64,000 bases of DNA from positions 1 to 64,000 of the forward strand of contig JAUYSM010000109.1 of assembly GCA_030696315.1 (NCBI GenBank), read 5' to 3'. The number at the start of each line of letters is the position of its first letter. Position 1 is the stretch's first letter. This DNA is from Pseudohongiella sp. Lineage in GTDB: Bacteria; Pseudomonadota; Gammaproteobacteria; Pseudomonadales; Pseudohongiellaceae. A model generated the notes under the pieces. That model worked only from the letters and a program-made list of their open reading frames with translations, was not told where the DNA came from and made no database searches. Positions 8,423-10,733 of this stretch are shown here, piece after piece. A program made the position numbers and the translations under genes.

Positions 8423-9289
8423 TTAACGCATCACTTTTTGTTTGCTTTCGCGCAGTGACCAGATGAGGCCAAGCCCGAAGCCTGCATTAAATTTGTTTTC
8501 AAATAGCGGGCTATGCACGTTCTTGGCGCCGTGATGAAAACTGGTCTGCACCGTGGCAAACATCCTGGCTTTGTTACTGATGTGCCAGGTGCCAGAGAAA
8601 TTTAAACCCGTACCAAAATAGCCGCCACGTGCGCGGTAAGGGGTACGGTCTACCTGACTGAACTCATTGGCGACATCAAAAAAGTAGCCGTGAACATCGC
8701 GTGTTGCCCATAAAGGTTTCAGCGATACGGTTGCTTCGAGTTGCGGGTGGAAAGCACCGTAATGCCGATAACGCAGCATTGGCTCAAACACGTAGCCATG
8801 ATGATCAACTGCGCCAAAGTCCGTAGAAAATGCTGCGCGCGCCTGCAAAGCAAGCTGGAGCTCGGAGCGACTGGTGTCACTGAACTCAAATTTTCCGAGA
8901 TTAAAAACCAGTTGTGGACCCACTTCAAAAATGAAGTCCAGATCGGGCATGCCTTCTCGCAACTCATTGCCTTCACTTTCAGAGTCGAACGCTGCCGCAA
9001 ATGACAGTGACAATTCATAGTTGCCATTTTCTGCTGCGACAGCGCGTGCGGCACCGCCGTCACCAATGCGCAGAATATCGCCACGATAAACCACGTAAGG
9101 CAATCCAAGTCCCCGGGTTTGATACTCATCGGACGAGGGATAATGCGGTTGTACCAGCACGCCCCCACCCAGGCCAAGCTCCCACAAGGGTTTTTCAATC
9201 ATCACCGGCTCTGCTGCCTGCACAGAACCCCATAAACAGCTTGATATCAGCAGTGCTGCACGTGCATTCAAATGTTGTCGAGACGTCAT
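8423..9289 (-). CDS. MipA/OmpV family outer membrane protein
   Basis: Signal peptide; WELGLGGGVLVQPHYPSSDEYQTRGLGLPYVVYRGDILRIGD. Confidence 0.85.
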   Translation of the reverse strand: MTSRQHLNARAALLISSCLWGSVQAAEPVMIEKPLWELGLGGGVLVQPHYPSSDEYQTRGLGLPYVVYRGDILRIGDGGAARAVAAENGNYELSLSFAAAFDSESEGNELREGMPDLDFIFEVGPQLVFNLGKFEFSDTSRSELQLALQARAAFSTDFGAVDHHGYVFEPMLRYRHYGAFHPQLEATVSLKPLWATRDVHGYFFDVANEFSQVDRTPYRARGGYFGTGLNFSGTWHISNKARMFATVQTSFHHGAKNVHSPLFENKFNAGFGLGLIWSLRESKQKVMR

Positions 9290-10317
9290 AAATTTTCCAG
9301 AGTATAAGCAATTCGCGCGCCGGCTTCGGCAATTCGCTTGGTAGCGATATCGCGCATCTGTTGCTCATACGCTGCGCTCAGCGTAACGGTTCCCAGTTCA
9401 TTGCCGGTATTTTCGCTACGCAGCACATTGTCGATCACGGTTTGAGGGTATACGGTGCTCAGCAAAATATCGCGACTTTGTTGCAACCAGTATGTGGGGC
9501 GAAAACCAAGCTGATCGGTATCGGAGGAAATGTCGGTGGCGATTGCCATTAACGCCGGCATTGATTGAGAAACAGGTATTTCACGCAGAGCTCTGTCCCA
9601 TGTGGAGTGCAGATTGCCGTTGTTCACACGGATACCATTGCCACCACGGTCGCCTTCAGGGAACAGGCGCTCAGATACCAGGCCACCGGTATGCAAAGGC
9701 TGATGAACATCACCGATCAGGTGCAGCAACCAGCTCAACGCCACCGCTTTGTCGGCGGTATTGGTGGCGTTTTGCAGTTCATAAATCGCAAAATCCAGTC
9801 CATTCGCCACATTGTCGACATGGCTACGCTCTTGTATCTGCTCGGCAGCTACACCTTGAATATCAGGACGGGGCGCGGTATTGACGTAAACATTGCCTTG
9901 GCGAACTGTCTCATCGCGCACCCAGGCGCCGTCAATCCAGTGCCAGTTCGGATTGTCAAAGCGCTGCTGATCGTCGCCCTCAAAACCTCGCGCCATATCC
10001 GGCCAGATAGCCGCTTGGCCCAGCAGCCAGCGCGCCTGAGTATCCGCATCGGTGCTCTTAAGCGCATCAGGCATGGCGGCCAGGAAATCCTGCTCAAAAC
10101 GTGGGTGTGCTCTCAGGATGGTGATGAATTGCTCGCGTGTATCGGTGGACATCAACTCCCAGGCGACTTCAGCCGTCAAACGATGCCCTGTGGCATCCCA
10201 GGCGTTTGCGGTGAACGGCAATAACATCAGCAGCGAGGCTTGTACTGACGAGATGACACATCTGCGTGTCTGATGACACATGAGCGAAGATAAGAAAACT
10301 GCGCGCTTTAAAAACAT
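9286..10317 (-). CDS. S1/P1-type nuclease
   Basis: NAWDATGHRLTAEVAWELM; LSWLLHLIGDVHQPLHTGG; HSTWDRAL; 4-bp overlap with MipA gene. Confidence 0.9.
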   Translation of the reverse strand: MFLKRAVFLSSLMCHQTRRCVISSVQASLLMLLPFTANAWDATGHRLTAEVAWELMSTDTREQFITILRAHPRFEQDFLAAMPDALKSTDADTQARWLLGQAAIWPDMARGFEGDDQQRFDNPNWHWIDGAWVRDETVRQGNVYVNTAPRPDIQGVAAEQIQERSHVDNVANGLDFAIYELQNATNTADKAVALSWLLHLIGDVHQPLHTGGLVSERLFPEGDRGGNGIRVNNGNLHSTWDRALREIPVSQSMPALMAIATDISSDTDQLGFRPTYWLQQSRDILLSTVYPQTVIDNVLRSENTGNELGTVTLSAAYEQQMRDIATKRIAEAGARIAYTLENL

Positions 10318-10390: not shown

Positions 10391-10431
10391 CAAAAAAATG
10401 CCCACGTGAAGCGCTTGGCTCACACGTGGGC
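10391..10431 (-). terminator. Rho-independent terminator (minus strand)
   Basis: 9-bp perfect stem GCCCACGTG (10431-10423)/CACGTGGGC (10408-10400) followed on minus strand by ATTTTTTTG. Confidence 0.8.
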
Positions 10432-10503
10432 TAGGTATCACCCATCAATGGAAAAGGGGAGAGTCTGTTCCATTCAAGCCACCAGCAGGGGAATGCCGGT
10501 GCT
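10391..10503 (-). ncRNA. Candidate structured small RNA or 5' leader (three hairpins, C-rich loops, terminal Rho-independent terminator)
   Basis: Minus-strand hairpins CACCGGCA-UUCCCC-UGCUGGUG, AAUGGAA-CAGACUCUCCCCUU-UUCCAUU and GCCCACGUG-N14-CACGUGGGC-AUUUUUUU; TATACT hexamer at 10514-10509. Confidence 0.55.
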
Positions 10504-10733
10504 TGATCAGTATAATGCATGAGCTGTGCCAGTATTTTTTGGGGTTGCGCTAGTTATTGAAAATAAAGGGAAAATATTTTTTAATTTGGGTTTTGAAGCT
10601 TTTTAGGCCTATGGTTCTGTGTAGGGTTGCAGGAAAACACGATTCGTTTTGGTTCTTCGGTGCTGATTTTGCACCAGCTTGGTGCGCTTAAATTTTATTG
10701 TTGGTAATGTGTTGTCATAAAAGGATGTAGCGA

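Follow-up and report, generated by a model that had tools for sequence, protein, structure and literature searches.

In Pseudomonas aeruginosa, the hairpin-containing small RNA (sRNA) NrsZ is induced by nitrogen limitation in an NtrB/C- and RpoN-dependent manner. It is at least 226 nt long, is processed, adjoins ntrC in the spacer that follows this gene, and carries ACAGGCAG (PMC9308961). Few NtrC/sigma-54 sRNAs are known, and NrsZ is the main proteobacterial example that we found. The open-access literature contained few papers on NtrC-dependent sRNAs and, in our search, no paper on the small RNAs of Pseudohongiella. The Qrr sRNAs of Vibrio also depend on sigma-54 and are Hfq-type RNAs of ~110 nt with multiple hairpins. 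RsaE/RoxS and the Neisseria sRNA NmsR carry UCCCC or CUCCCC in loops or single strands, where these motifs are able to pair with Shine-Dalgarno sequences. The RNA targets of ANTAR proteins have two hairpins with six-base loops, in which the first base is A and the fourth is G, and the second hairpin overlaps a terminator (PMC3369931, PMC7496416).

The window analyzed here is a 64,000-nt stretch of Pseudohongiella sp. DNA (contig JAUYSM010000109.1), in which the original prediction had placed a candidate sRNA or attenuator upstream of an S1/P1 nuclease gene. The best explanation of the comparative sequence data is that this locus probably encodes a stand-alone sRNA that is activated by NtrC and sigma-54 under nitrogen limitation and acts through C-rich anti-Shine-Dalgarno loops.

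Predicted RNA, promoter, and NtrC-type site

Three minus-strand hairpins followed by a T-run were present exactly where they had been described (Table 1). H1 consists of CACCGGCA-UUCCCC-UGCUGGUG (10501-10480, with one G.U pair) and is extended to 10505-10475 by CAAG/CUUG. H2 consists of AAUGGAA-CAGACUCUCCCCUU-UUCCAUU, and H3 consists of GCCCACGUG-N14-CACGUGGGC followed by AUUUUUUU; the latter was also picked up by a consensus scan. The minimum free energy of the 117-nt stretch was -50.7 kcal/mol compared to -32.2 +/- 3.2 kcal/mol in shuffles (z = -5.7), and none of the 200 shuffles folded as well.

A TATACT hexamer had been noted just upstream, with no good -35 element. This hexamer is not kept in relatives, and a sigma-70 promoter scan found no promoter. 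The conserved element is instead a sigma-54 box and, therefore, no -35 element is to be expected. The position of the box puts the start of the RNA at about 10505, giving a length of about 114 nt. TGGCA[CT]-N6-TGC was found ~26 nt before the predicted RNA start in every homologue kept; since homologues from the genus designated g4 were recognized partly by this box, its presence counts as independent evidence solely at loci that BLAST or the first covariance model had detected. A single match to the box alone is non-significant in 64 kb, and its weight comes from its occurrence in all homologues. At the sequence level, the locus has the traits of a trans-acting, Hfq-type sRNA: its own promoter, an intrinsic terminator with a U-tail, no conserved ORF, and a conserved unpaired seed.

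An NtrC-type palindrome was found at the same spacing from the box in Pseudohongiella (genus g1) and in genus g5, though the intervening sequence has diverged. Across 31 loci, the mean best match to the site was 8.6/10, compared to 6.6/10 in shuffles. Several members from g4 and a few from g5 have only a weak site or none at all, and in several Pseudohongiella loci the site is imperfect (8/10). The count of GCACY-N5-RGTGC in the window's genome proves nothing alone, as 20 places were found compared to 18 for the reversed control. These places nevertheless include the regions just before glnA, ntrB, and glnK-amtB (ntrB, glnK, and amtB were recognized by inspection), and at glnA and glnK-amtB the palindrome is accompanied by sigma-54 boxes. 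The genome also has an ntrC gene above the curated cut-off and an Hfq gene above its own cut-off. From these sites we infer that NtrC would activate the RNA gene. Both this sigma-54/NtrC control and the kinship with a nitrate-assimilation leader described below had escaped the original prediction, and the control suggests what the RNA responds to.

Two other features were seen in the upstream region. One is an AT-rich stretch, TTTTCAATAACTAG (10550-10564), located downstream of the NtrC site and upstream of the sigma-54 box; it is TATCAA-like in relatives and may be an IHF site. One homologous locus (L038) has several GTGGGAGCGAGCCTTGCTCGCGAAGG-type repeats, similar to Pseudomonas REP elements, upstream of the box.

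Table 1. Predicted features of the RNA locus and its surroundings (positions in the window).
Feature	Position	Strand	Remarks
NtrC-type enhancer palindrome, GCACC-AAGCT-GGTGC	10671..10685	-	154 nt upstream of the -24 element
Conserved block AAGAACCAAAACG	10645..10657	-	In nearly all genus genomes; putative function, possibly a weak second NtrC half-site ~30 nt from the first
Sigma-54 -24/-12 box, TGGCACAGCTCATGCA (TGGCAC-AGCTCA-TGCA)	10516..10531	-	TGGCA[CT]-N6-TGC in homologues
Small RNA, ~114 nt	10392..10505	-	Start predicted 12 nt past the C of the -12 element; ends at the T-run
Hairpin H1, loop UUCCCC	10475..10505	-	Fold; other complementary stems in its place in relatives
Hairpin H2, 14-nt loop CAGACUCUCCCCUU	10447..10474	-	Stem covaries between genera; most homologues fold so alone
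CUCUCCCC, most conserved loop motif, presumed anti-Shine-Dalgarno seed	10456..10463	-	15/15 genus genomes and most members elsewhere
Linker GGGUGAU	10437..10443	-	GGG able to pair with CCC of the terminator 5' arm
Intrinsic terminator H3 with T-run	10392..10431	-	Fold and consensus scan; kept in all homologues
S1/P1 nuclease gene	9286..10317	-	74 nt downstream of the RNA; Pfam PF02265; synteny in the genus; not beside the RNA in other genera

Conservation and covariation

BLAST detected the RNA in each of the 15 Pseudohongiella genomes searched, and ~39 bases surrounding H2 and the linker are almost invariant across the genus. A covariance model built from the genus sequences also detected it in genera g5, g7, and g4 of the Pseudohongiellaceae, and a second model added further g4 members. 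A scan of one genome per species for the pattern of sigma-54 box, CTCTCCCC, and GGGTRAT returned 16 stretches, all in Pseudohongiella or its sister genus g5. No certain member was found in the order at large: model 1 matched the genus alone among 295 genomes, and model 2 gave weak matches there without the C-rich hairpins.

Several candidates were rejected. The BLAST match in G112 (L017) was taken as chance since its surroundings have neither a sigma-54 box nor the hairpins, and the weak matches within the family (L092, L100, L101, L103, and L105-L109) were excluded because they lack a sigma-54 box followed by a terminator. Several model matches in other families of the order look like coding-gene ends with strong terminators. 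The second model also matched sigma-54-type leaders in f43 (L132, L135, and L137) and f13 (L134), where GGG[UC]-AAUGNN-GCCC overlaps the terminator. These matches resemble nas leaders (GGG[UC]AAUG..GCCC) without C-rich hairpins and were not counted as members.

The stem of H2 is AAUGGAA/UUCCAUU in Pseudohongiella and GCGAAUC/GAUUCGC, GCGGAUC/GAUCCGC, or GGGCCUC/GAGGCCC in g5. Despite this almost complete replacement of the stem, the loop in the other genera retains CUCUCCCC or a near variant. In the covariance-model alignment, 97% pairing was counted in the H2 helix, 6 of whose 7 pairs show two-sided changes, and on each of five structure-wide measures all 500 shuffles fell short of the observed value. 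Since such an alignment is biased toward structure, two independent checks were conducted. Folding of single sequences gave the same hairpins in nearly all homologues, with L008 and the g4 form L040 as exceptions, and a plain MAFFT alignment of the g5 sequences had 91% paired cells in H2, where 4 of the 7 pairs had changed on both sides. The compensatory changes and loop conservation looked for in the original prediction were thus found for H2, while the loop of H1 is less strict: most Pseudohongiella have UUCCCC or CUCCCC, one has CUCAAC, and the g5 loops are of the CCUCU/CUCUC type. The H1 stem is swapped for other complementary stems in relatives. An independent small RNA, as had been proposed, is supported by conservation, covarying stems, its own promoter and terminator, a C-rich loop that outlasts the stems, and homologues that stand alone.

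Gene neighborhood and alternative roles

The gene order in Pseudohongiella is VOC, arfB, RNA, S1/P1 nuclease, and mipA. The arfB gene upstream of the RNA is divergent, as the original prediction implied, and the nuclease ATG at 10317 agrees with the spacing originally given. As the attenuator proposed for this nuclease, the RNA would be a cis leader: the nuclease-MipA operon would be transcribed from the NtrC/sigma-54 promoter, termination at H3 would be regulated, and the nuclease would be made to scavenge nitrogen or phosphate only when some factor permits read-through. In its favor, all Pseudohongiella loci examined have the nuclease gene after the RNA on the same strand, even where identity is only 38%; base pairing is possible between the linker GGG and the terminator arm; and the related g5 RNA leads nrtABC or nasA. 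However, this is not the general role of the RNA family. In g7, arfB and VOC are unchanged but the gene downstream of the RNA looks, by inspection, like a 2Fe-2S oxidoreductase subunit. In the g4 genomes G173 and G042, the gene after the RNA (GyrI-like or FecR) is convergent and, thus, the RNA can lead nothing there. In addition, the spacer between terminator and nuclease is unconserved and varies in length, the upstream neighbors arfB and VOC are nearly as syntenic as the nuclease, and no genus-wide alternative fold was seen that could replace the strong terminator. We consider a nuclease leader improbable, and the best reading is that the RNA does not primarily serve as one. Another possible explanation is a non-ANTAR protein-binding RNA, such as a sponge for a regulator that recognizes C-rich loops. 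The RNA has two similar loops on separate hairpins, a loop more conserved between genera than its stem, and a long, nearly invariant stretch within the genus. Csr/Rsm sites carry GGA and Crc/Hfq sponges carry A-rich repeats, but the loops have neither, and this role is very unlikely.

In g5, the RNA has nitrate-assimilation genes as neighbors. It is located either directly before nasA or between nrtA and nasT-nasS, the latter encoding a response regulator with an ANTAR domain and an NMT1_2 sensor; the terminator lies ~32 nt before the nrtA start. The homologue lies between nasT-nasS and nrtABC at L034, L046, L048, L054, L055, and L060 and before nasA at L043 and L090. The g5 RNA has GGGU-AAUGU[AG]-GCCC, an A1/G4 hexaloop that occupies the P2 position (the linker in the window) and overlaps the terminator in most cases, and one g4 genome, G070, has the same nas setting and layout. 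The RNA of the window could therefore be an antitermination leader for NasT/NasR, either a relic or still active, or it could act as a decoy for an ANTAR protein in the manner of the EutX/Rli55 RNAs. Against this, the P2 position in Pseudohongiella is GGGU-GAUCUC-GCCC or has a longer insert; GGG/GCCC pairing is possible in the window, but the hexaloop consensus is absent. The two A1/G4 hexaloop hairpins were not found at the P1/P2 positions of the Pseudohongiella RNA, which has only 3-bp, chance-like A..G.. hexaloops, and no ANTAR-type P1 hairpin was found in the g5 RNA either. Seven genomes that keep the RNA (G001, G002, G008, G020, G173, G042, and G171) gave no ANTAR match. The RNA of the window thus seems able to do without an ANTAR protein, whereas the g5 RNA may need one. 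Moreover, a different contig of the window's genome carries a NIT-ANTAR (NasR-type) gene and a proper two-hairpin leader. An ANTAR role for the RNA of the window is, therefore, unlikely. Leaders of the two-hexaloop ANTAR type with a sigma-54 box, lying before nitrate-assimilation genes near a NIT-ANTAR gene, occur at L120 (11874-12070; contig C61 of G000, the window's genome) and L122 (G009).

The cis leader in g5 also counts against the sRNA reading, since trans action is then one of several roles that the family might share. One tentative possibility, which we hold to be somewhat doubtful, is a single family with two roles. In g5, the RNA would be an NtrC-driven, NasT-responsive nitrate-operon leader whose terminated form is an sRNA, and in Pseudohongiella and the other genera it would have been released from this operon to serve only as a nitrogen-stress sRNA that uses C-rich anti-Shine-Dalgarno loops. 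If true, such a family would show how an antitermination leader and a trans-acting sRNA interconvert.

Proposed function and target searches

In the preferred reading, that of a stand-alone nitrogen-limitation sRNA, phosphorylated NtrC bound ~150 nt upstream would activate sigma-54 polymerase at TGGCAC-N6-TGCA when nitrogen is limiting. The 114-nt RNA predicted to be transcribed would end at H3 and would presumably be bound by Hfq through its U-tail. Its C-rich loops, CUCUCCCC in H2 and UUCCCC in H1, could then pair in trans with the G-rich Shine-Dalgarno regions of mRNAs, which would be translated less while nitrogen is short. Since the unpaired element that is best conserved is rich in C and complements G-rich Shine-Dalgarno sites, trans pairing under nitrogen limitation would most simply explain a conserved, terminated RNA that in some of its hosts stands alone.

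The target searches did not single out an mRNA. The exact complement, AAGGGGAGAGT, had no occurrence outside the RNA gene and gave no conserved target. In the window's genome, AGGGGAG-N4-9-ATG sites showed no enrichment (5 compared to 9 in the reversed-pattern control), and the two genus genomes searched had no gene with such a site in common. For example, ETF-QO-like and DUF1428-like genes, recognized by inspection, have an AGGGGAG site in the window's genome that is absent in G009.

Comparison with known regulatory RNAs

The Rfam 15 search proposed in the original prediction found no family at the gathering threshold anywhere in the window and nothing credible at E <= 10 for the RNA stretch. 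The sub-threshold scores of this stretch were 16.5 bits for RsaE, compared to a gathering threshold of 79 bits, and 14.7 for NmsRb, compared to 52. The RNA resembles RsaE/RoxS and NmsR in its C-rich loop motif but has no homology to them and belongs to a different promoter class. It is like the Qrr sRNAs in its sigma-54 class, hairpins, and size; in contrast to these, it has no Rfam match and its activator site is NtrC-like rather than LuxO-like. With the NasR/NasT leaders of Klebsiella nasF and others, it shares the short length, the hairpins, and the intrinsic terminator. The g5 homologue comes closer to them through its sigma-54 promoter, the same position, and a P2-like A1/G4 hexaloop, whereas the RNA of the window lacks both the A1/G4 dual hairpin at P1/P2 and adjacent nitrate genes.

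The predicted promoter logic resembles that of NrsZ, with putative NtrC and sigma-54 sites that are conserved here. The RNA itself differs from NrsZ. It is only ~114 nt long and has C-rich loops, its sequence does not contain the motif ACAGGCAG, and it lies on contig C11 between arfB and the nuclease gene while ntrC is on contig C98. We therefore regard it as a new sRNA family with predicted NrsZ-like control and an unusual kinship to a nitrate-operon leader. It would add a second such family, unrelated to NrsZ, from the little-studied Pseudohongiellaceae; its promoter is clear, its conserved loop is seed-like, and its stems covary. The homologue before nrtABC/nasA provides a natural case of an attenuated leader and a free sRNA that share descent, which makes it possible to test whether a terminated leader can also serve as an sRNA.
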